This document shows, in pieces, positions 37,684 through 50,016 of a stretch of DNA of 64,000 nucleotides. Position 1 is the first letter of the stretch; each line of letters begins with the position of its first letter. Location: assembly GCF_000566685.1 (NCBI RefSeq), contig NZ_AZQN01000009.1, positions 62,001-126,000 of the forward strand. Direction: 5' to 3'. Under the pieces are notes generated by a model. It did not search any database. It worked only from the letters and a program-made list of their open reading frames with translations, and was not told the DNA's origin. The position numbers were made by a program, and so were the translations under genes. The stretch comes from Dyadobacter tibetensis Y620-1 (GTDB taxonomy: Bacteria > Bacteroidota > Bacteroidia > Cytophagales > Spirosomataceae).

Positions 37684-38043
37684 CTAATCCTGCATGCCTA
37701 TAAATACCTTTCCCTCTTGTACCTGCACCGGAAAGGTAGCTATTTGAAGGGTCCCATCATTAATTCCCGCTCCGGTTCTTAAAGAAAAGGTTTTTTTATG
37801 AAAGGGACAAGCTACCTTAGGTTCATCGTTTTCACAACCGGTCATGCCCCTCGATAATGCCATTTGTTGTTTGTGAGGACACTGGTTGTCCGTAGCGTAC
37901 CATTCGCCGCGGCGACTTAGATTGAAAATGGCGATCTGCTTACCGTTGATTAAGGCACAGGCTCCGCCTTCAGAGGGAACATCATCAATATGACAAGCAT
38001 AGTGCCATATAATTCGTTCGGTTACGTGAGATACATTATTCAT
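37684..38043 (-). CDS. nirD: Nitrite reductase [NAD(P)H] small subunit with complete Rieske site
   Basis: The 119-residue protein is a NirD-type Rieske-fold subunit. It keeps both ligand motifs, C-x-H in NQCPHKQQMALSRG and C-x2-H in ACPFHKKTF, so it should bind a [2Fe-2S] cluster, unlike E. coli NirD, which lacks them. It starts 54 nt after nirB and precedes the sensor kinase by 55 nt. It assists NirB in reducing nitrite to ammonium in the cytoplasm. Confidence 0.92.
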   Translation of the reverse strand: MNNVSHVTERIIWHYACHIDDVPSEGGACALINGKQIAIFNLSRRGEWYATDNQCPHKQQMALSRGMTGCENDEPKVACPFHKKTFSLRTGAGINDGTLQIATFPVQVQEGKVFIGMQD

Positions 38044-38097: not shown

Positions 38098-40611
38098 TCA
38101 CTGCCAATCCTTCACCTTTATCTGTCCACGCATTTCCTCGAAGGCTACGCTAGGATCCTTTTGATCGGCATTGACGAAATGCGTAAAACGTTTTCGAAGT
38201 TCTGGGGTTTCGACCACCTCTTTCCATTCACAGTGAAACCGATTCACCAATTCCTGCATCTCTCGCTCCCATTGCTCCCCCATTTCGAGCAAGTCATCGA
38301 CAACGACGGCCCTGAGATAGTTAATACCGCCTTCCATCTTGTTAAGCCATGTAGCCGTACGTGTTAATGGATCGGCCGTCTGAATATAAAACATTAGAAA
38401 TCGATCGATGAGTCTCAAGCAGGTTTCCTTATCTACATCGGTTGCCAGTAGCTGTGCATGCTGGGGTTTTGACCCGCCATTACCACATACATATAGATTC
38501 CAGCCCTTTTCAGTGGCTATAATTCCAAAATCCTTACTCTGTGCTTCTGCACATTCCCTTACGCAACCCGACACGGCCGATTTTAACTTATGAGGAGAGC
38601 GTAAGCCCTTATAGCGCTCTTCCACTTCGATAGCAAACGATACCGAGTCCTGAACGCCAAACCTGCACCAGGTAGAACCTACGCAACTTTTAACTGTCCG
38701 CAAGGATTTTCCATAAGCGTGCCCACTCTCGAAACCTGCGTCTATTAATATTTCCCATATCTGGGGCAAATCACTCACATGGGCTCCGAATAAGTCGATA
38801 CGTTGCCCTCCGGTAATTTTGGTATACAGACCAAAACGTTGAGCAACCTGTCCGATTACGATAAGCTTTTCAGGAGTAATTTCTCCACCCGGAATTCGTG
38901 GCACTACGGAGTAAGTGCCTCCCTTTTGAATATTGGCAAGGAATCGGTCATTAGAATCCTGAATGGTAGCGCGATCACTATGGAGGATATTTTCGTTCCA
39001 TAAACTCGCCAGAATAGAACCCACCAATGGTTTACAAACCTCACAACCATGCCCTTTGCCAAAGAGATCTATGGTGGCTCCAAAGGTTTTTACCTGATTA
39101 ATTTTCATCAAATCCAGAAGCTCCTGGCGGGAATGACCAAAATGCTCACAAATGACCTTACGTAAATAAATACCTTGTTTCTTTAAGACGCCCTGAATCA
39201 AATCGTTGACCATAGGAACACAACCTCCACAACCCGTTCCTGCTTTACAACTTTTCTTGAGTGCGTCGATGGTCGTATTTCCATTTTCTACCTCACTACA
39301 AATCATTCCCTTGCTTACAGCTTCACAAGAGCAGATGAGTGCATCATCGGGAAAATTCATTACCCCAGCACCTGTTTCCTCCGAACCCCTGTTTCCTAAT
39401 ATCAGATCTTCAGGATCGGGAGGCAGAATGGTTTTGCTTTTGGTGGTCTGAAGGAGCATATTATACTGACTGGCGTCGCCTACCAAAATCCCACCAAGCA
39501 ATTCCCTACCATCACTAGAAATATTAATTCGCTTGTATATACCCTTGGCTTTATTTTCAAAGCGAACGGTTCTGCAGTCTGGCTCCTTCACAAAGGGGTC
39601 TCCAAAACTGGCCACATCTGTCCCTATTAACTTTAGCTTAGTAGACATATCGAATGGCAGGAAGGCTTTTTCAGCACCTAATAGCTGGCTTACGACGACC
39701 TCCGCCATCTCATAGCCCGGCGCAATAAGTCCATAGATCATCTGATGCACCAAAGCACATTCACCGATGGCAAAAATAGCGGGATCCGCCGTCCGCAATC
39801 GATCATCTACCAGAATGCCACCTCGAGGGTGGGTTTCCAAGCCAGCAATTTTGGCCAGCTCGTCACGAGGCCTAATCCCAGCCGAGATTACCAGCATATC
39901 GATTGGTAACTGACTACCGTCTTTAAATATCAGCCCCTCGATACTCTCCTGACCTAGAATGCTATCGGTAGCCATAGAGAGGTGAATCTGCAATCCGAGC
40001 GACTCAAGCTGGGCCTGTAGCACCTCCGAGCCTGCTTCGTCTATTTGCCGCGGCATCAGTCGAGGGGCGAACTCTACCACATGGGCCTCTTCCATGCCAA
40101 GATCAAGCAGTGCCTTGGCAGCCTCTAAGCCCAATAGTCCTCCTCCCAACACCGCTGCTTTCCGAGCATGATGTGCGTGTTCACTTATCAATTCCAGATC
40201 TTCAATGGTCCGGTAGACGAAAACACCCTTTTTTTCTACCCCTGGGATAGGAGGGACAAAGGCCGCTGACCCTGTTGCAAATATCAAATAATCGTAGCCA
40301 ACAACGATACCATGATGGGACCGTACCGTCTTCTGCACCCGATCTATATCTACTACAGGATCGGAAAGATAAAGGGTAATTCCTTGTTGGGCATACCATT
40401 CGACCGAAGCTAAAGAAAGATCGTCTGCCGATGCACCGTCAAAATAAGAACTCAGGTGTACCCGGTCATATGCCGGGCGGGGCTCCTCACCAAACACGGT
40501 TACCGTAAAATTCTGTTCCGTATGATTCTTGGAGAATAATTTTTCGCAGAATTTATAGCCAACCATCCCATTGCCTATAACTACGATTCTTGTATTTGCA
40601 CGTGCTTCCAT
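38098..40611 (-). CDS. nirB: Nitrite reductase [NAD(P)H] large subunit
   Basis: NirB reduces nitrite to ammonium with NAD(P)H. The 837 residues show an FAD motif (RIVVIGNGMVGYKFCEKL), a NAD motif (KAAVLGGGLLGLEAAKAL, about 147), BFD-like [2Fe-2S] cysteines in LICSCEAVSKGM and GTGCGGC (about 425-470), a ferredoxin-like half domain with VPRIPGGEITPEKL, and the siroheme/[4Fe-4S] ligands SCVGSTWC (643, 649) and SGCVREC (683, 687). All key residues are intact. It is the first gene of the leftward operon of the nitrate island and diverges from the cobA operon. Confidence 0.96.
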   Translation of the reverse strand: MEARANTRIVVIGNGMVGYKFCEKLFSKNHTEQNFTVTVFGEEPRPAYDRVHLSSYFDGASADDLSLASVEWYAQQGITLYLSDPVVDIDRVQKTVRSHHGIVVGYDYLIFATGSAAFVPPIPGVEKKGVFVYRTIEDLELISEHAHHARKAAVLGGGLLGLEAAKALLDLGMEEAHVVEFAPRLMPRQIDEAGSEVLQAQLESLGLQIHLSMATDSILGQESIEGLIFKDGSQLPIDMLVISAGIRPRDELAKIAGLETHPRGGILVDDRLRTADPAIFAIGECALVHQMIYGLIAPGYEMAEVVVSQLLGAEKAFLPFDMSTKLKLIGTDVASFGDPFVKEPDCRTVRFENKAKGIYKRINISSDGRELLGGILVGDASQYNMLLQTTKSKTILPPDPEDLILGNRGSEETGAGVMNFPDDALICSCEAVSKGMICSEVENGNTTIDALKKSCKAGTGCGGCVPMVNDLIQGVLKKQGIYLRKVICEHFGHSRQELLDLMKINQVKTFGATIDLFGKGHGCEVCKPLVGSILASLWNENILHSDRATIQDSNDRFLANIQKGGTYSVVPRIPGGEITPEKLIVIGQVAQRFGLYTKITGGQRIDLFGAHVSDLPQIWEILIDAGFESGHAYGKSLRTVKSCVGSTWCRFGVQDSVSFAIEVEERYKGLRSPHKLKSAVSGCVRECAEAQSKDFGIIATEKGWNLYVCGNGGSKPQHAQLLATDVDKETCLRLIDRFLMFYIQTADPLTRTATWLNKMEGGINYLRAVVVDDLLEMGEQWEREMQELVNRFHCEWKEVVETPELRKRFTHFVNADQKDPSVAFEEMRGQIKVKDWQ

Positions 40612-40889: not shown

Positions 40890-41648
40890 ATGAAACCAAG
40901 ACTAACCCTGGTAGGAGCCGGTCCCGGCGATGCAACACTCATCACGCTTAAAGGTATTCAGGCCCTGGAGCAGGCTGATGTAGTACTCTATGATGAACTG
41001 GCCTCTAGCGAGCTGTTACAGTACGCTCCCAGGAACGCTTTTAAAATGTATGTCGGCAAAAAAATGGGCACAGAGGGATTCAGTCAGATAGAGATCAACC
41101 AACATATTGTACGTCTTGCAAAAAAACGTGGACATGTAGTACGGCTGAAAGGTGGAGATCCATTCGTATTTGGCAGGGGACACGAAGAGCTATCCTATGC
41201 CGAGCAGCATCAGATCCCTACAACGGTTGTTCCGGGTATTTCTAGTTGTATTTCAGTACCGGAAGCGGCAGGAATACCGGTTACCAGGAGGGGCTATAGC
41301 CGAAGTTTTTGGGTTATTACGGGCACAACCCAGGACGGAGAACTTTGCGATGATCTATATCTGGCCGCTCAATCGAAAGCCACCGTGGTGGTTCTGATGG
41401 GGCTTCATAAAATCAAGGAGATTTGTGCGATATACCAAAAATTCGGCAGAGGACATCTGCCGGTGGCTGTTATACAGAATGGCACCAAGGAAAGCCAGAA
41501 ATTGGCCATTGGGCAAGTCTGGGAAATCAACCGATTGGTACAGGAAAAAGGAATTGGCGCACCCGCCGTCATGATATTTGGAGAAGTAGTAACCTTACAG
41601 CCTAGCTACATGATCGAATATTTAAACCAGCAATCACTGCTGGCTTAG
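40890..41648 (+). CDS. cobA: Uroporphyrinogen-III C-methyltransferase
   Basis: The 252-residue enzyme uses S-adenosylmethionine to methylate uroporphyrinogen III twice, giving precorrin-2, the siroheme precursor. Family motifs: LTLVGAGPGDATLITLKG at the start, VVLYDELAS, VRLKGGDPFVFGRGHEEL and VPGISSCISVPEAAGIPVTRR. It stands alone as the SUMT domain; the oxidase/ferrochelatase half is a separate gene at 62.7 kb. Being first in the operon makes sense because NirB needs siroheme. Confidence 0.95.
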   Translation: MKPRLTLVGAGPGDATLITLKGIQALEQADVVLYDELASSELLQYAPRNAFKMYVGKKMGTEGFSQIEINQHIVRLAKKRGHVVRLKGGDPFVFGRGHEELSYAEQHQIPTTVVPGISSCISVPEAAGIPVTRRGYSRSFWVITGTTQDGELCDDLYLAAQSKATVVVLMGLHKIKEICAIYQKFGRGHLPVAVIQNGTKESQKLAIGQVWEINRLVQEKGIGAPAVMIFGEVVTLQPSYMIEYLNQQSLLA

Positions 41649-41755: not shown

Positions 41756-43090
41756 ATGAAATCAACTCTCCTACTATTAATTAGCATGCTACTAATGGCT
41801 AAAGGCTATGCTCAACTAAGTATCGATGGGCAACTGCGAACCCGTTCCGAACTACTAAATGGCCAGTCGGCTCCCTTGCCGAAAGGTAGTAAACCGGCAT
41901 TTTTTACCTCCCAACGCACACGCCTAAAAGTCGACTATATCAGTTCTCGTATACAATTCCGAGCAACACTTCAGGATGTGCGGGTATGGGGACAGGACGC
42001 CTCTACGAATAATAGAGTTTCCCCCAGCACCAGCAATGGACTTATGATGCATGAGGCCTGGGCCAGTGTGGGTTTCCTGGATACTACCCAAACGAAAAAA
42101 GGTCTCGATTTAAGACTAAAGATCGGACGTCAAGAGTTGATTTATGACGACAGCAGACTTTTGGGTAATCTGGACTGGTTGCAACAGGGGCGGCGCCATG
42201 ATGCAGCAGTGCTACAATATACTCAACCGGGACTCCAGCTCCACTTAGGTGCTGCGTATAACCAAAACCGTGAGAATCGATCAGGAAGCTTATATGACGG
42301 AATTCCCGTAGGATACGCGGCAGGAACCAATGGAATCGGCACCATGTATAAGTCCATGCAATTTATATATGTCAATCGGAAACTTCCGAGAGGCTACCTT
42401 TCATTTCTGGCCCTGAAGGACGATTTTCAGAAATACGAATTGACCAGCACCACTGATAAAATTTGGAAAGAAGGAACTTGGAGTCGAATAACCTTTGGCC
42501 CATACCTCCAAACCCACCTCACTAACACCTGGCAACTAAATGCCAGTGCAAACCTGCAAACGGGAAGAGACAAGACGGGCAAAGAACTCCTGGCTTACTT
42601 CTATTCCTTGAAGGCTACCGCTGCCCTTTCCAAGTATTTTAATATAGGTCCCGGGTTTGACTACAGCTCAGGCAGCACAGCAGGCAATAGTCGCAATCAT
42701 AGTTTCGACCCCCTATACGGGACACCACATAAATTCTGGGGGCATATGGACTACTTCTATACGGCTTCTTCCTTCGGCAACGGTGGGCTCTCGGACCTAT
42801 ACATTCATAGCAGTCTGAAAACTGGAAAAAAGTGGGGCTTAACCGCTGATATCCATCGTTTCAACAGTGCAGCTGTCGTGATGAATGAAACTGAACAGCG
42901 GCCCAGCCATTTGGGAACTGAACTGGATTTCACAGCGCAATTTGATCTGGCTAAAAACATAGGCATTCAGGCCGGCTATGCTACTTTTTTTTCCTCTTCC
43001 ACATTAGCCGAACTGAAGGGTATTTCCAACCCTAAAAAACGATCAGATTGGGCCTATATCATGATCAACATTAACCCGAGTTTCCTTTAA
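41756..43090 (+). CDS. Alginate-export-like outer membrane porin, probable anion porin
   Basis: The 444-residue protein has a signal peptide (MKSTLLLLISMLLMAKGYAQ) and a beta-barrel with the alginate export family pattern, for example LSIDGQLRTRSELLNG and LRLKIGRQELIYDDSRLLG. Nothing in the window makes alginate. Its place between cobA and narK, 48 nt before narK, suggests an outer-membrane channel for nitrate or nitrite; this is inference from context. The final residue is Leu after FNPS-like MININPSFL rather than the usual aromatic end. Confidence 0.8.
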   Translation: MKSTLLLLISMLLMAKGYAQLSIDGQLRTRSELLNGQSAPLPKGSKPAFFTSQRTRLKVDYISSRIQFRATLQDVRVWGQDASTNNRVSPSTSNGLMMHEAWASVGFLDTTQTKKGLDLRLKIGRQELIYDDSRLLGNLDWLQQGRRHDAAVLQYTQPGLQLHLGAAYNQNRENRSGSLYDGIPVGYAAGTNGIGTMYKSMQFIYVNRKLPRGYLSFLALKDDFQKYELTSTTDKIWKEGTWSRITFGPYLQTHLTNTWQLNASANLQTGRDKTGKELLAYFYSLKATAALSKYFNIGPGFDYSSGSTAGNSRNHSFDPLYGTPHKFWGHMDYFYTASSFGNGGLSDLYIHSSLKTGKKWGLTADIHRFNSAAVVMNETEQRPSHLGTELDFTAQFDLAKNIGIQAGYATFFSSSTLAELKGISNPKKRSDWAYIMININPSFL

Positions 43091-43138: not shown

Positions 43139-44449
43139 ATGAACAAGCCCCTTGAAAAATTAAACATCTTTAGTTTTAAAGGTGTTCAAATGCGCACCTT
43201 CCATCTTTCCTGGATGGCCTTTTTTCTATGCTTCTTTGGCTGGTTCGGTCTGGCTCCTCTCATGTCGGTAATTAAAGTCGACTTAGGTCTTACTAAAGAC
43301 CAGATTGGCAATATTATTATTGCTTCCGTTGCGGCCACGGTAGTCGCCAGAGTTTTGATTGGGAAACTATGCGACACCTGGGGCCCTCGCAAAACGTATT
43401 CAGCCTTAATGGCCTTTAGTGCCATACCTGTACTTGGAGTCGGCTTGGTACATACATATGAGAGTTTCTTGCTATTCAGGCTGGCCATAGGAGTAATAGG
43501 CGCCTCATTTGTCGTCACCCAATACCATACTTCAGTAATGTTCAGTAAAAATATCGTTGGTACAGCTAATGCAGTGGCAGGGGGCTGGGGCAATCTGGGA
43601 GGCGGCGTAACCAATATGGTCATGCCTTTGGTATTCGCAGGCTTTGTCGGCCTGGGCTATCTGCCTACTCAGGCATGGCGATTAGCTATGATCATACCCG
43701 GCCTGATGCTCCTCGTATTTGCTGTACTCTACTTTTATTATACGAAAGATACTCCAGAGGGCAATTTTGACGATTTAGAAATAGATCCGAAAGCATCACC
43801 CAAAACCAAAGGCAGCTTACTCACCGCAGCCAAGGATATCAGAACATGGGCTTTATTCCTAGCTTATGCTGCATGTTTTGGCATAGAAATTACCTTTGAC
43901 AATGTAGCAGCCCTATATTTCTTCGATCGATTCGATACCAGCCTGGCCATGGCGGGCATGTTAGCGGGAACATTCGGGCTAATGAACCTCTTTGCCAGAG
44001 CTTTAGGGGGTATTTTTGCCGATAAAATTGGCAGGAAATATGGTATGATTGGTAAGGGGCGATTGCTGGCGCTATTCCTTGCAATGGAAGGTATTGGCAT
44101 CGCTATGTTCGCCCAGAGCAACAGTCTGGTAGGTGCAGTGCTCATGATGCTCGGCTTTGCCATGTTTCTAAAAATGGCGAATGGTGTCACCTATGCCATT
44201 GTTCCTTTTATCAATCAAAAAGCGATCGGGTCGGTCAGTGGTATTGTCGGTGCAGGGGGTAATGTCGGTGCAGTAATGGCCGGATTTCTGTTTAAGTCCA
44301 GCAGCATCAGTTATGCCCAAGCCTTTATGTATATAGGAGCCGCCATAGCCGTAGTAGCCGCATTGGTAGCACTCATCGATTTCAATAAGACACGCAGCGA
44401 AATAGCAGTGGGTAGTGGTGAACTGGAAACAGTAAAAGTACCCCGTTAG
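43139..44449 (+). CDS. NarK-type nitrate/nitrite MFS transporter
   Basis: The 436-residue protein has about 12 membrane helices and the nitrate signature motifs, AVAGGWGNLGGGVTNMV in helix 5 and GIVGAGGNVGAVMAG in helix 11. RVLIGKLCDTWGPRKT is the MFS loop motif. NarK/NrtP family members import nitrate or exchange it for nitrite. It lies 41 nt before the nitrate reductase gene, so it feeds the cytoplasmic reductase. The closest class is assimilatory nitrate import. Confidence 0.94.
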   Translation: MNKPLEKLNIFSFKGVQMRTFHLSWMAFFLCFFGWFGLAPLMSVIKVDLGLTKDQIGNIIIASVAATVVARVLIGKLCDTWGPRKTYSALMAFSAIPVLGVGLVHTYESFLLFRLAIGVIGASFVVTQYHTSVMFSKNIVGTANAVAGGWGNLGGGVTNMVMPLVFAGFVGLGYLPTQAWRLAMIIPGLMLLVFAVLYFYYTKDTPEGNFDDLEIDPKASPKTKGSLLTAAKDIRTWALFLAYAACFGIEITFDNVAALYFFDRFDTSLAMAGMLAGTFGLMNLFARALGGIFADKIGRKYGMIGKGRLLALFLAMEGIGIAMFAQSNSLVGAVLMMLGFAMFLKMANGVTYAIVPFINQKAIGSVSGIVGAGGNVGAVMAGFLFKSSSISYAQAFMYIGAAIAVVAALVALIDFNKTRSEIAVGSGELETVKVPR

Positions 44450-44490: not shown

Positions 44491-47400
44491 ATGAACTCAG
44501 CAAAACCTCAACCCTCGACCTGTTGCTATTGCGGCGTAGGCTGCGGAGTGCTCGTACAGCAAGAAGCTCAAGGTCAGCTATCCCTGAAGGGCGACGAAAG
44601 TCACCCTTCTAATAAGGGCATGCTTTGTTCAAAGGGAATGAATCTCCATTATACGGTAATGGATCAGTCGGACAGGATCTTATATCCCCGCATGCGCTAC
44701 CACCGGAGCTTACCTATGCAAAGAGTCTCCTGGGAAGATGCGCTTTCACGGACTGCGGCCGTTTTCAAAACCCTGATCAAAAAGCATGGTCCCGACAGCG
44801 TAGCGTTTTACGTGTCGGGACAGTGCCTGACCGAAGAATACTATCTGGTCAATAAGCTGATAAAAGGCTTTATTGGTTCTAATAATATAGATACCAATTC
44901 CAGATTATGCATGAGTTCGGCCGTGGTGGGCTACAAACTGTCATTGGGAGAAGATTCCGTACCTGTCTGCTACGACGATTTGGAGTTGGCCGATGTACTG
45001 TTGGTAACAGGGGCAAATCCGGCATGGTGCCACCCCATATTATGGAGGCGTATTGAGGCCCACAAGGCCGCCAACCCTCATGTGAAAATAATTTGTGTAG
45101 ATCCACGAACTACCGACACGGCACGCTCGGCAGACCTTCACCTTCCTATCAGGCCGGGTACTGACGTACTTTTCAACCATGCCATCGCCAAAATCTTAAT
45201 AGACCAGGGCTATGCAGACATGTCGTTTATCGACCGGCATACAGATGGTTTTGAGGCACTTCAACAAATTCTGGCAGACCTATCTGTGGCCTCTGCGGCC
45301 GAGGCTTGCGGCGTTACGGAGGCAGATCTTCGACAGACTGCCGAGTGGATAGGGCAGTCCACGGGCTTTATTTCATTATGGACGATGGGGCTCAATCAGT
45401 CTGTGGTTGGAGTGAATAAAAATCTATCCCTGATCAACTTGCATCTGATTACCGGACGGATAGGCACAGCCGGCAACGGCCCCTTTTCACTTACCGGGCA
45501 GCCAAATGCGATGGGGGGAAGGGAAACGGGCGGGCTTGCCAATATCCTGCCGGCACATCGAGATGTAACCAACCCCAGCCATCGCAAGCAAATGGAAGAT
45601 TTTTGGGAAAGCCCCGTAAAAATAAGTGATCGACCCGGGCTAACGGCCACCCAGATTATGGAAGCACTCCATGATGGTCGTTTGAAGGCCTTATGGGTAA
45701 TCAATACCAATCCGCTGGTAAGCATGCCCGACATTGGTTTCGTAGAAAAAGCCATGAATCATTCCAGCTTCGTGGTCGTACAGGATATTTCGGAACGGTC
45801 GGACACAGTCGCTTACGCCGATGTGGTGCTTCCGGCAGCAGGGTGGCTGGAGAAAGAAGGCACTATGACCAACGCAGAAAGGAGAATAACCTACCTTCCC
45901 AAAATTTTAAAAGCCCCGGGAGAAGCCCTTCCAGACGTAGAAATCATCTGGCGTTTTGCTCAAAAAATGGGTTTTGAAAAGGCATTTAGATATGAAAAAG
46001 CAGAGGAAGTGTATCTGGAATATGCCCGTACTACAAAAGGTACCAGCATAGATATTACGGGCGTAAATTATCAACTATTAAAGGAAAGAAGAAGTATACA
46101 ATGGCCATTTCCAGAAAGCGGTGCAAGCCTTCCCGTTCTGGGCACTGCCCGGCTATTTACTGACCATCAATTTTACACCGATAACAAAAGGGCCAAAATT
46201 CATGGCGTGCCGGTAGGGAATGCTTCAGAACCAACCGATGGCAATTTTCCTCTAGTATTAACGACCGGGCGTATCCGCGATCAGTGGCATACCATGACCA
46301 AAACGGGAAGGGTAGCCAGGCTTAACAGGCATATTTCGGAACCATTTTTACAGATTAACCCTATAGATGCAAAGCAACGTGGTATAGAAGAAGGTGCCCT
46401 GGTACTCATTACTGGTAGAAGGGGAAACGCACGAGTAAAGGCTCAGCTAACAGAGGACGTGCGTCCTGGACTTTGCTTTCTTCCCATGCATTGGGGTAAA
46501 ATGGCAGGAGGTAATTTTAGCAGGGCTAACAACCTAACCAACAGCCTGACGGACCCCCGATCGGGAGAGCCTGATTTTAAGTACACGGCTGTTGAGGTGG
46601 AATTGTACCAAAAACCTGTTGAAAAAATTGTAATCATAGGGGCAGGCTCGGGTGGATTAGGCTTTATCAATCACTACCGCAGCCTGAACCGTACGGACGA
46701 AATCGTAGTGTTTTCTAAGGAAATATATCCTTTTTACAATCGAGTTATGCTCCCGGACTATCTAAGCGGAGAACAAAGCTGGGATCAGCTTGTGAAGCTT
46801 CGGGAAGATCAGTTCCAACTGTCAGGAATCACCGTTTATAAAGGCAGAGAAGTTCGGCATATCGACAGACAGCGCAAGCTCATCTATGACAGCGAAGGCA
46901 TGGAACACAGCTATGATAAATTGATTCTAGCTACGGGGAGCAAGGCTTTTATACCTAAAGGAGTGCCCCGTATGCCCGGCATTTTTAATATGCGTTCGAG
47001 ACTGGACGCCGACACTTTATTGCCCTTTCTAAAAACAGAAAATCCACATGCGGTAATCGTTGGAGGAGGCATTCTAGGCCTGGAACTGGCGGCTTCCTTG
47101 AGTAAAACCCACTGTGCTGTAACCGTCATTCAACGCAGTGGGCGATTGATGGAACGGCAGCTAGACCCGGTAGCCAGCGAACTCCTCTATCAGGAGCTTA
47201 TTGAGAGAGGCATAGAAATATTTTTCAACGATGAAGTCGCCACTTTCCAGGGGACCAACAGACTGGAAGGATTACGTTTAAAATCGGGAAGAAAAATTTC
47301 CTGTCATGCGGCCATACTCGCTATTGGCACGGTGCCTGTTACCGATCTGGCCAGGCAAGCCGGTCTGGAAATCCAAAGAGGAGTCCTCGTCAACGATTAT

Positions 47401-48033
47401 CTGCAGACTTCGGATCCCAGCATCTTTGCCGTTGGAGAAATTGCCGAATGGAAAGGACAGATGTGGGGCATCACCCTCGCCGCCGAACAACAGGCAGAGG
47501 CAGCGTCATATTTTATCGCCGGAAATATGGCAAAACCTTACCAGGGCAGTACCTCTATGAATATCCTAAAAATAGAAGGTCTACAAGTATGCAGTATAGG
47601 TATGGTAGAAGTACCTGCCAACGACCCCACTTACGAAGAAATTATATTCATCGATAAATCGAAACGCTATTATAAAAAATGTCTCGTTCATGCCGACAAG
47701 CTAGTAGGCGCAACCCTGATCGGCGATAAAAATGAATTTTTGACCTTTAAGGAACTCATCTCTGAGGGGATAGAACTCTCCGAAAAGCGACTGCAGCTTT
47801 TGCGATCTAGTCAGAACGCGGAGGCAGTATTGGGGAAAATAGTATGCTCCTGTAATAATGTAGGAATGGGCAATCTGGAGAAGGCTATTGCCAGTGGCTG
47901 TCTGGATTTTAAGACCTTATGCACCACAACGGGAGCTGGCACCGGCTGTGGTTCCTGCCGCCCGGAAGTCAAATCTATTCTGGATAATATGTCGGAAAAA
48001 GAAATGGCAGAAATCACCCTTTCCAACCCTTAA
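44491..48033 (+). CDS. Single-chain assimilatory nitrate reductase: molybdopterin, flavin and [2Fe-2S] modules
   Basis: The 1180-residue protein joins two genes that are often separate. Residues 1-700 are a NasA/NarB-type catalytic subunit: [4Fe-4S] ligands C11, C14, C18, C46, a likely molybdenum-ligating cysteine in NSRLCMSSAVVGYK (about 140), and a C-terminal molybdopterin-binding domain. Residues about 705-1100 are an FAD/NAD oxidoreductase (VIIGAGSGGLGFINHY, AVIVGGGILGLELAASL). The tail is a BFD-like [2Fe-2S] domain (VCSCNNVG, GTGCGSC). Electrons would go from NAD(P)H through flavin and the clusters to molybdenum. No signal peptide, so cytoplasmic. Confidence 0.93.
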   Translation: MNSAKPQPSTCCYCGVGCGVLVQQEAQGQLSLKGDESHPSNKGMLCSKGMNLHYTVMDQSDRILYPRMRYHRSLPMQRVSWEDALSRTAAVFKTLIKKHGPDSVAFYVSGQCLTEEYYLVNKLIKGFIGSNNIDTNSRLCMSSAVVGYKLSLGEDSVPVCYDDLELADVLLVTGANPAWCHPILWRRIEAHKAANPHVKIICVDPRTTDTARSADLHLPIRPGTDVLFNHAIAKILIDQGYADMSFIDRHTDGFEALQQILADLSVASAAEACGVTEADLRQTAEWIGQSTGFISLWTMGLNQSVVGVNKNLSLINLHLITGRIGTAGNGPFSLTGQPNAMGGRETGGLANILPAHRDVTNPSHRKQMEDFWESPVKISDRPGLTATQIMEALHDGRLKALWVINTNPLVSMPDIGFVEKAMNHSSFVVVQDISERSDTVAYADVVLPAAGWLEKEGTMTNAERRITYLPKILKAPGEALPDVEIIWRFAQKMGFEKAFRYEKAEEVYLEYARTTKGTSIDITGVNYQLLKERRSIQWPFPESGASLPVLGTARLFTDHQFYTDNKRAKIHGVPVGNASEPTDGNFPLVLTTGRIRDQWHTMTKTGRVARLNRHISEPFLQINPIDAKQRGIEEGALVLITGRRGNARVKAQLTEDVRPGLCFLPMHWGKMAGGNFSRANNLTNSLTDPRSGEPDFKYTAVEVELYQKPVEKIVIIGAGSGGLGFINHYRSLNRTDEIVVFSKEIYPFYNRVMLPDYLSGEQSWDQLVKLREDQFQLSGITVYKGREVRHIDRQRKLIYDSEGMEHSYDKLILATGSKAFIPKGVPRMPGIFNMRSRLDADTLLPFLKTENPHAVIVGGGILGLELAASLSKTHCAVTVIQRSGRLMERQLDPVASELLYQELIERGIEIFFNDEVATFQGTNRLEGLRLKSGRKISCHAAILAIGTVPVTDLARQAGLEIQRGVLVNDYLQTSDPSIFAVGEIAEWKGQMWGITLAAEQQAEAASYFIAGNMAKPYQGSTSMNILKIEGLQVCSIGMVEVPANDPTYEEIIFIDKSKRYYKKCLVHADKLVGATLIGDKNEFLTFKELISEGIELSEKRLQLLRSSQNAEAVLGKIVCSCNNVGMGNLEKAIASGCLDFKTLCTTTGAGTGCGSCRPEVKSILDNMSEKEMAEITLSNP

Positions 48034-48044
48034 TTCATTTGCAT

Positions 48045-49511
48045 ATGCGCGACTACTTTATTTTTAAGATCAATCTTCCAGGAGGAATCGTATCGCCCGG
48101 CACTTTGTACCATATACTTAAACAGGCTTACCAGCTAGGCGTTCGGTATGTACGGGTGGGGTCCAGGCAAGAGCTGTATCTCGAAATTCATAATGACGAG
48201 GTACGACTTTTAGAAAAAGAACTAAAAAAAATGGATTTGCATTATGAAATAAATACCAACCGCACTCCAAACATCATCAGTTCATATTGTGGGGAGGAAG
48301 TTTTTAGAACAGGCCAATGGTTGGGTCCGCAGGAATACCATACCATACTGGACAGTCTGGACTATAGCCCGACTATGAAGATCAATATTTCGGATAGCAA
48401 CCAGAGTTTCACGCCCTTTTTCACTGGCAATCTCAATTTCATTTCCTCTCAAATTCCGCATTACTGGCATTTATATTTGCGAAAACGACAGCAAAATACC
48501 CTTCACAAATGGCCCGAACTGATTTATACCAATCATATTGGCCAGGTGGCGGCAGAGCTGGAAGAAATATTAAGTAAAAACCCTGACCTCACCCCAGAGA
48601 ATTTACAGCCCCTGGTGCAGCAGAGCAAACCCTATATCGCCCTTCCCCCGGGGGTAGATTTGCAACTTCCTGCCTTCTCACTTCCCTATTATGAGGGTTT
48701 TAATCGCTACGAGTCCCGTACCTGGCTAGGGCTCTATCAGCGCGACGAGCAGTTTCCTATCGCCTTCCTGATGGACCTCTGCGACCTGTGTCTGCGTAGC
48801 CGTATTGGGGAAATTTGCACTACACCCTGGCGTTCCTTGATTATTAAAGGTATAGAAGATCAATATAGGACTCAATGGAGTACGATTCTGGCAAAACACC
48901 ATATCAACATGAGGCATTCGGCCAGTGAGCTCGCCTGGCAGACAGAGGAATACGCACCCGAAGCTAATCTTCTCAAAAAACGGATTTTAAGATATATGGA
49001 ACGGGAAGACACCCGTACTTTCGGCCTGTGTTTCGGTATACAGACCCGCCCAAAATCTGAAGTCTTCGGCTCCGTTTTAATACGCAAGCGAATGAAAGTA
49101 CGGATTGGCCCCTGGGCTCTATTTCCCGTATATGATATTTTCCATACCGACCAGTTTAACCCGAACAATCGATCGTTGATCCCCTTTGAATTGGGGTTAT
49201 GGAAGGCCCAGCTTCCCGGTCAAATCGAGAAACTCTGCCGCCGATTTAACAATCAACGTTCTTATGACGAACAGAATAGGATGGTTCAGCAGCCTGCCAT
49301 GGAAGAAGTGCTTCCCATACATACGGTCTTCGAATGCCCTGAATGCCTCAGCCATTATGACCCTCTACATGGTGATCCTCTTCAAGGGATCGACCCCCAT
49401 ACTGCTTTTACAGATTTACCGGTAGAATATTCCTGTTTGCTTTGCGGCGGCTCGAAAGATGAAATGACCGTAAAGCAGATCGCAGCCAATAACTCTTACG
49501 GTTCTAATTAG
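48045..49511 (+). CDS. Degenerate sulfite/nitrite-reductase-like scaffold with C-terminal rubredoxin
   Basis: From ATG 48045 the protein has 488 residues. The N-terminus (INLPGGIVSPGTLYHILKQA) resembles the NIR_SIR ferredoxin-like half domain of NirB (IPGGEITPEKL), followed by a region where the cluster ligands should be: the second cysteine of C-x5-C is missing and SGC-x3-C is replaced by ISDSNQSF. A second half-domain-like part (IGEICTTPWRSLIIKGIED) follows. Residues 429-475 are a rubredoxin with four cysteines (431, 434, 464, 467) and YDPLHGDP, DLP. It should not bind siroheme but could carry one iron. It lies 11 nt after the nitrate reductase, pointing to electron transfer. Confidence 0.8.
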   Translation: MRDYFIFKINLPGGIVSPGTLYHILKQAYQLGVRYVRVGSRQELYLEIHNDEVRLLEKELKKMDLHYEINTNRTPNIISSYCGEEVFRTGQWLGPQEYHTILDSLDYSPTMKINISDSNQSFTPFFTGNLNFISSQIPHYWHLYLRKRQQNTLHKWPELIYTNHIGQVAAELEEILSKNPDLTPENLQPLVQQSKPYIALPPGVDLQLPAFSLPYYEGFNRYESRTWLGLYQRDEQFPIAFLMDLCDLCLRSRIGEICTTPWRSLIIKGIEDQYRTQWSTILAKHHINMRHSASELAWQTEEYAPEANLLKKRILRYMEREDTRTFGLCFGIQTRPKSEVFGSVLIRKRMKVRIGPWALFPVYDIFHTDQFNPNNRSLIPFELGLWKAQLPGQIEKLCRRFNNQRSYDEQNRMVQQPAMEEVLPIHTVFECPECLSHYDPLHGDPLQGIDPHTAFTDLPVEYSCLLCGGSKDEMTVKQIAANNSYGSN

Positions 49512-49551: not shown

Positions 49552-50016
49552 ATGCCCCAGCCTATTTACTTCGATTTTGAAACCGATTTTGTGAGTACCC
49601 TGCGCTGCATTCCTATGATTGTTCGGTACAAATTAGATCGATGTCTGATTAAACTTCAATTGTCTCATTGGGCAAAATTCAGCAGGGAAGACAAAGAACT
49701 GATGGCAGCCCTTCCTTGCGAATCAGCTATGGAGATCGGTCAGTATGCGGTTTTGGTTCAATCTCTTGTTACAAAAACGGGAGCACCCAAAGCCAATAGT
49801 CTAACGCATGTGGAGGCGAGCTGGGAAGACTTAAACCACATACCTACCAGCGTACGAAAAAAAGCAAAAGAATACAATAGCATCTGCCCTACCCTGGTTC
49901 AGTGGCAGAGCCTAACCGAATTAGAACGTTTCGCTTTAGTAAAATTAAGCCAATCGGGACATGAAGCTGCCAACTTCCCTAAGGCCCTTCAAGAGTTTGC
50001 TATCTATTGCAGGTAG
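49552..50016 (+). CDS. Nitrate reductase associated protein
   Basis: The 154-residue protein matches the nitrate reductase associated family found beside assimilatory nitrate reductases in cyanobacteria and others: FDFETDFVSTLRCIPMIVR, KLDRCLIKLQLSHWAKFS, then LPCESAMEIGQYAVLV and a helical C-terminus. No signal peptide or cofactor motif is present. Its job, perhaps maturation or assembly of the reductase, is unproven. It is the last gene of the operon, 40 nt after the rubredoxin hybrid. Confidence 0.88.
   Translation: MPQPIYFDFETDFVSTLRCIPMIVRYKLDRCLIKLQLSHWAKFSREDKELMAALPCESAMEIGQYAVLVQSLVTKTGAPKANSLTHVEASWEDLNHIPTSVRKKAKEYNSICPTLVQWQSLTELERFALVKLSQSGHEAANFPKALQEFAIYCR

Follow-up and report, generated by a model that had tools for sequence, protein, structure and literature searches.

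A sulfite/nitrite reductase-like protein with a C-terminal rubredoxin encoded behind nasA in Bacteroidota, and its possible role in nitrate assimilation

Described nitrate reductase partners and the present locus

In Paracoccus, the ferredoxin NasG is reported to serve both reductases (PMC6618116, PMC4724949, PMC5424462). Two of these papers report that NasC and NasB both receive electrons from NasG and that the three proteins may associate in a complex (PMC6618116, PMC4724949). The first also reports that NarJ is needed for NasC activity in Paracoccus denitrificans (PMC6618116). The present study deals with a gene of Dyadobacter tibetensis Y620-1 which lies directly behind a nitrate reductase gene and whose product, here called P, resembles neither NasG nor NarJ in its domains. 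The window, that is the whole stretch of 64,000 nucleotides that was analysed (contig NZ_AZQN01000009.1), comes from a genome of 5.3 Mb. The minus strand carries nirD and nirB, and the plus strand carries, in this order, cobA, a porin-like gene, narK, nasA, the gene for P and narM.

Domain matches and the cysteine pattern identify NirB (38098..40611, minus strand) as the large subunit of an NADH nitrite reductase with an intact cysteine signature, and Pfam identifies NirD (37684..38043, minus strand) as the Rieske-type small subunit. On the plus strand, the CobA-like methyltransferase of siroheme synthesis (40890..41648) was named from gene order and from its likeness to annotated plasmid operons. 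The porin-like protein (41756..43090) corresponds in place to a Spirosoma oryzicola gene annotated 'alginate export family', and the NarK-type nitrate/nitrite transporter (43139..44449) was recognised from its open reading frame and the annotated plasmid operons. NasA (44491..48033, plus strand) has 1180 residues, and its domain matches show a molybdopterin nitrate reductase fused to NADH/FAD (Pyr_redox_2 and Rubredoxin_C) and BFD [2Fe-2S] modules. Rubredoxin_C, which is matched by the FAD part of NasA, is a domain of rubredoxin reductases. The gene for P runs on the plus strand from an ATG at 48045 to a stop at 49511. Its 488-residue product is classed as a pseudo sulfite/nitrite reductase with a C-terminal rubredoxin on the open reading frame, Pfam matches, an AF2 model and Foldseek. 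Its start lies 11 nt downstream of the end of nasA at 48033, the distance given in the first-pass annotation. NarM (49552..50016, plus strand), assigned by its match to PF09655/TIGR02664, follows and is patchy in Bacteroidota. Among 14 control genomes, Synechococcus elongatus alone was positive for the NarM-type family PF09655. On plasmids, nasA and the gene for P stand in operons of the order nirB-cobA-porin-narK-nasA-P (L220, Spirosoma oryzicola) and nirD-transporter-nasA-P-cobA (L183, Hymenobacter volaticus).

No description of the P family was found by title or abstract start in the open-access literature. Many Bacteroidota thus seem to include in their nitrate assimilation a component which is undescribed in that literature and is annotated as 'rubredoxin'. 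P is probably a helper part of the nitrate reductase system because its gene sits beside the nitrate reductase gene, and would count as a pseudoenzyme that combines the siroheme reductase fold with a rubredoxin tail. It bears on the question of how cells balance the 2-electron and 6-electron steps.

Fold, pocket and rubredoxin tail of P

The family was studied in an alignment of 49 rows, made up of P, 20 family loci, 15 P-bearing loci out of 20 further ones, and 13 of 80 that were picked for spread. Pfam places NIR_SIR_ferr on P in two stretches. Half domain 1 (residues 4-62; 48051..48230, plus strand) reaches 33.4 bits against a cut-off of 24. Half domain 2 (about 48765..48890, plus strand) taken alone has 15.7 bits, which is under the cut-off, and is supported by the model. 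NIR_SIR_ferr is found in every one of the 49 members when E up to 1 is allowed, and a chance half-domain match was rejected on this count.

The AF2 model of P, computed from the 49 sequences, has a pLDDT of 91.8 and a pTM of 0.81. Compared with solved structures by Foldseek, its best match is NirA (1zj8, E 7.7e-18), and the first 31 rows are all NirA, sulfite reductase hemoprotein or plant nitrite/sulfite reductase chains with E from 7.7e-18 to 1.8e-13. These rows cover 455-541 columns at 10-13% identity with TM-scores by query length of 0.54-0.65; the superposition is loose (rmsd 4.7-10.5 Å). The tail was matched to classical rubredoxins. A second model, made for the member L051 which is 28% identical, finds the same sulfite and nitrite reductase chains with a best E of 3.2e-16, and its global rmsd of 15-19 Å in the first 31 rows makes the placement of its halves unreliable. 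Profile alignment with CysI/NirA pairs P 3-413 with CysI 78-550 over 402 columns (13% identity, probability 89.9, E 1.7e-6). Taken singly, NirA (E 5.3e-4, 68 columns), the organism's own CysI (E 1.4e-4, 131 columns) and NirB (E 0.022) gave comparisons too weak to rank the possible ancestors of P, among them NirA, CysI and CobG. On the predicted structure, the body of P is most likely a complete two-half sulfite/nitrite reductase fold. The reductase scaffold and the second half-domain-like part that the first-pass annotation had proposed are therefore upheld by the model, which matches whole reductase chains. Its N-terminal alignment of P with NirB (KLKSAVSGCVREC against TMKINISDSNQSF) was reproduced by profile comparison, weakly (E 0.022, probability 2.2%).

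The cysteines which ligate the cluster and siroheme were sought with the pattern C-x(4-6)-C-x(20-70)-C-x3-C. It occurs in 34/34 NirB, in 4/4 NirA tested, in E. coli CysI and in the organism's own CysI, and in none of the 49 P rows. NirB of the window does carry cysteines 643, 649, 683 and 687. NIR_SIR_ferr and rubredoxin profiles stand above cut-off in P, and PF01077, the Pfam NIR_SIR 4Fe-4S family, has no match in P at E up to 10. It should be noted here that the two-half CysI of the same organism has the signature in its C-half only (residues 420-468), so that setting the N-half of P against the single catalytic half of NirB, as in the first-pass annotation, is not diagnostic. The cysteine loss first noticed is real for the signature as a whole, and the region in which it had been read off has no signature even in CysI. 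Judged from the sequences, the telling loss in P is that in the C-half.

Several basic positions of the presumed pocket are kept. The pocket positions were read off the distant alignment (13% identity), in which those aligned to CysI R83, R117, K217 and Q396 hold Arg or Lys in 47, 49, 48 and 49 of the 49 rows; at the position of K215 at least 24 rows do so, and at those of R153 and R214 none. Asn114, Gln120 and Asn131 are invariant (N114, Q120, N131; 49 rows). We take R83, R153, K215 and K217 of CysI to be the substrate-holding residues. In half domain 2 there is also a motif C246xxC249 (48780..48791, plus strand), with C246 in 49/49 rows and C249 in 48/49. This pair had been missed in the earlier reading, whose domain parts are themselves confirmed. 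No His or Met was found among the invariant or nearly invariant columns of P beyond the start Met. The site of P looks dead for the known chemistry. An anionic ligand may still bind, because basic pocket positions are conserved, and the term 'ligand-free' used for P in the first-pass annotation is not established, given these positions and C246xxC249.

The C-terminus of P is a rubredoxin domain (49329..49463, plus strand) with C431, C434, C464 and C467, as had been proposed. PF00301 matches residues 429-473 with 44.4 bits against a cut-off of 23, the spacing is CxxC-x29-CxxC, and at E up to 0.001 PF00301 has no second match in the genome. Within the family, the Pfam rubredoxin model is matched by 45/49 members and the four cysteines are present in 48/49 rows. 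The row without a rubredoxin (L180:63-1556, genome G275) lies at a contig start, in a genome where NirB is absent at E 1e-60 and NasA has no better than a 32% partial match, and it is apparently a relic. The two cysteine pairs are 28-29 residues apart in 30 of 33 genomes compared. Three genomes keep the cysteines with loops shortened to 15, 15 and 8 residues (G031 and G075, of one genus, and G537). Since the loop has shrunk in two lineages, the tail may not be a classical rubredoxin in every member.

Distribution and linkage of P

In the family sample of 150 genomes, fused NasA was scored at E up to 1e-100 and NirB at E up to 1e-150, and the searches scored the best 2-4 candidates per genome, so that single misses are possible. 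P was matched in 115 genomes, fused NasA in 111 and NirB in 112. Every genome with fused NasA (111/111) has a P match, some of them partial. NasA and P share a contig in 107 genomes, and in every one of these P follows NasA on the same strand, at a gap of 2-1962 nt (median 92) which is within 150 nt in 71. In the other four (G065, G105, G113 and G119) they are on separate contigs. P is likewise kept next to nasA in 28/28 genomes of the phylum sample that have both on one contig, so homologues of P do keep company with nitrate genes. The two reading frames overlap by 1-11 nt in 7/19 loci, which is not a rate since the 19 were close pairs chosen by hand out of 35. Some gaps of about 0.9-2 kb hold other open reading frames. 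In one genus nasA and P are separated by a gene of about 261 residues (L048:7571-8356, L051:7648-8436), of which the copy in L048 weakly matches a nucleotidyltransferase-like Pfam family, under the cut-off. Three loci have look-alike small opposite-strand frames at this place (L037:10231-10641, L039:6928-7329, L040:7289-7717) with N-termini that look signal-like by eye.

Four genomes with P have no NasA at E 1e-100. Three of them (G033, G067 and G129) contain NasA pieces at weaker E, adjoining P in G067, and in the fourth, G056, P is a fragment of 36 residues only. The match with NirB is less close. Among the 115 P genomes, which include fragmented assemblies, NirB went unmatched in G010, G056, G119 and G129, and G025, which is 66% complete, contains a piece of NirB and no P; the assemblies behind such mismatches consist of 70 to 700 contigs. 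Moreover, in 10/14 divergent family members compared, P stays by NasA although NirB lies 66 kb or more off, or on a different contig. NarM was found in 2/42 genomes searched and, by BLAST, beside P in three more (G029, G044 and G041), and a role of P tied to NarM was rejected on these counts.

In 395 genomes of the phylum, again with the best 2-4 candidates per genome scored, the P profile matched 123 at E 1e-5. Full-length P, over at least 416 of 479 positions, accounts for 29 of them; the remaining ones, among those listed, match at the rubredoxin end from position 369 onward. NasA was found in 44/395 genomes, fused in 33 and as the catalytic part only in 11. None of these 11 has full-length P, and they are possibly other molybdoenzymes. 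NirB occurs in 28/395 genomes, exactly those with fused NasA and P, and P accompanies the NADH nitrate and nitrite reductases over eight family groups. P as a replacement of NirB is unsupported, since NirB is present in all 28.

The remaining five genomes with fused NasA have no P (G157, G199, G304, G328 and G367). No separate NirB was found in them beyond the FAD part of NasA. They have NirA instead, with a Pfam NIR_SIR match in four and, in G199 (L163), as an open frame with the cysteine motifs. An FAD/NADPH-reductase-like protein is present in 5/5 and a flavodoxin in 3 by Pfam, and G328 has a flavodoxin-like frame by eye, while none was noticed in G157. In these NirA-type loci (L162-L166; G367, G199, G157, G304 and G328 respectively) it was observed that NirA, the flavodoxin and the FAD reductase share an N-terminal tag of the form PF(S/T)xxQ(R/K)x(W/Y)L(N/Q)(G/D)F, which is perhaps a docking peptide. 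One of the loci has a single-domain globin (PF00042, L164:7787-8233) just upstream of nasA, which recalls the globin that detoxifies NO and is encoded in the nas operon of Bradyrhizobium. The first-pass annotation had tied P to nitrate reductase. The gene linkage is indeed very strong, and the partner set looks like NasA and NirB together and not NasA alone, because the five fused-NasA genomes without NirB are also without P.

In a NasA tree with the unfused enzymes as outgroup, the five P-less sequences form one clade (98/96) which is sister to all 34 P-bearing NasA (97/94); their placing needs some caution as 4/5 of these rows have an unusual letter make-up. The split between genomes with and without P is thus one event on the NasA tree and the 28/28 co-occurrence is not a set of independent cases. 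The association of P, NasA and NirB is one evolutionary event that has been retained for long. Distances among 34 genomes, with the P row of G240 shortened to 375 residues, give a partial correlation of 0.41 for P and NasA given NirB and of 0.16 for P and NirB given NasA, values reached in 0/2000 and 47/2000 permutations. The best 80 of 406 relatives in a scan of named genomes all carry Bacteroidota names. Among plasmids no full-length P was found outside Bacteroidota: the seven records are four full-length ones, all Bacteroidota by name or taxonomy line, and three with the rubredoxin only.

Possible roles of P and comparison with known systems

The reading that we tentatively prefer, and which is quite possible and short of probable, is that P is a non-catalytic partner of NasA which couples it to NirB by docking and electron sharing. 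P would then be a subunit without catalysis in the NADH-dependent nitrate assimilation of Bacteroidota. Its body, having lost the [4Fe-4S]/siroheme site, could serve as a platform that is made from the gene directly behind nasA, binds to NasA and brings NasA together with the NirB(D) nitrite reductase. Through the rubredoxin tail, electrons could be passed one at a time between the two related NADH/FAD modules, or from them. In this way nitrate reduction, which takes 2 electrons, and nitrite reduction, which takes 6, would be kept balanced and a build-up of nitrite avoided. The complex, the electron flow and the hand-over of nitrite are what we infer from the place of P beside NasA, its retention in the phylum sample only together with NirB, its one-electron tail and its reductase-shaped body, which make a coupling subunit the best reading. 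As NasA has NADH/FAD, [2Fe-2S] and Mo domains of its own, along which the electrons presumably run in order, P need not be the sole donor. The same modules also count against coupling, since an outside donor should be unnecessary. So do the sister NasA clade that manages without P, the presence of NirD as a carrier, the five exceptions to the match with NirB in the family sample, and the short loops of some tails, which would suit a structural metal site no less than a carrier.

The main rival is that P is a maturation factor of NasA (a REMP), which like NarJ would hold the immature enzyme during insertion of the Mo cofactor and Fe-S clusters. We consider this unlikely, and yet it deserves to be taken seriously. 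P tracks NasA more than NirB, both in linkage and in the partial correlations. The NarJ family PF02613 is absent in 28/28 phylum genomes with fused NasA and P, NarM is rare as counted above, and a rubredoxin that shrinks while its cysteines stay would fit a structural metal site. The need of Paracoccus NasC for NarJ points the same way. Known REMPs of the NarJ kind are, however, small all-helical proteins, unlike the 488-residue reductase fold of P. In addition, the five P-less genomes with fused NasA should need such a factor too and only 2/5 have a PF02613 match, and the co-presence of NirB in the phylum sample is left unexplained.

A more special view of coupling, which we hold to be rather unlikely, concerns the origin of P. 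A two-half nitrite reductase that had been replaced would have been kept as a dead 'pseudo-NirA', stripped of siroheme and cluster and with a rubredoxin added, still holding its docking place on NasA and coupling NasA to NirB. The change would go back to an ancestor of these Bacteroidota in which nitrite reduction passed to NirB.

It is improbable that P binds or moves nitrite or another small anion in its left-over basic pocket, as a hand-over or sensing device with no redox catalysis. The basic residues at the positions of R83, R117, K217 and Q396 (and in part K215) and the invariant N114, Q120 and N131 would suit this role, and in the phylum sample P is confined to genomes in which nitrite has to be shared between NasA and a separate NirB. 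Against this, the positions of R153 and R214 are without Arg or Lys in all 49 rows of an alignment that is itself distant, and the rubredoxin is unexplained.

Still more doubtful is that P is a tetrapyrrole protein which binds siroheme, or a precursor, without the cluster, acting as a carrier or, supplied by its rubredoxin, as an unusual enzyme. The sulfite reductase fold with its retained basic residues is consistent with it, cobA lies within the examined stretch in 7/20 family loci, and CobG, a tetrapyrrole enzyme, is matched by 17/49 members at E up to 0.1 (best 1.4e-8). The P of the window itself has 16.2 bits to the CobG model TIGR02435 against a cut-off of 234.8. The ligating cysteine signature is missing, the conserved columns offer no His or Met, and the P-less genomes with NirA would need siroheme as well. 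That P is just a common rubredoxin protein, with no kinship to the reductases and a half-domain match due to chance, has in its favour the name 'rubredoxin' which NCBI gives to two plasmid-borne homologues in nitrate operons, and is hardly credible. NIR_SIR_ferr is matched throughout the family, and the fold match refutes this view, since the models of two members, which are 28% identical to each other, both match sulfite/nitrite reductase chains.

Among known systems, P shares its whole predicted fold, besides the half-domain match, with two-half NirA, CysI and plant nitrite and sulfite reductases. It differs from NirA and CysI in its low identity, the missing cysteine signature and the extra C-terminal rubredoxin, and NirA has two PF01077 stretches where P has none. 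With NirB of the same operon it has one NIR_SIR_ferr half domain in common, whereas NirB, which has a single half, carries NADH/FAD and BFD modules and keeps its signature intact. The precorrin-3B synthase CobG belongs to a family related to sulfite reductases; it is weakly matched by part of the P family, with the P of the window under the cut-off. The flavorubredoxin model is matched by 45/49 members, in the P of the window by its rubredoxin end, but P has no flavodiiron domain match and its body is like that of sulfite reductase. The maturation proteins NarJ and NarM resemble P in having a gene that adjoins, or is needed for, nitrate reductase and in having no catalysis of their own, as is proposed for P, which has no Pfam match to either (PF02613 included). 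Compared with NasG/NirD, the Rieske ferredoxin that serves NasB and NasC in Paracoccus, P has no Rieske [2Fe-2S] match in Pfam and its operon has a NirD of its own; the role proposed for P is nevertheless alike, that of a carrier within a pair of reductases.
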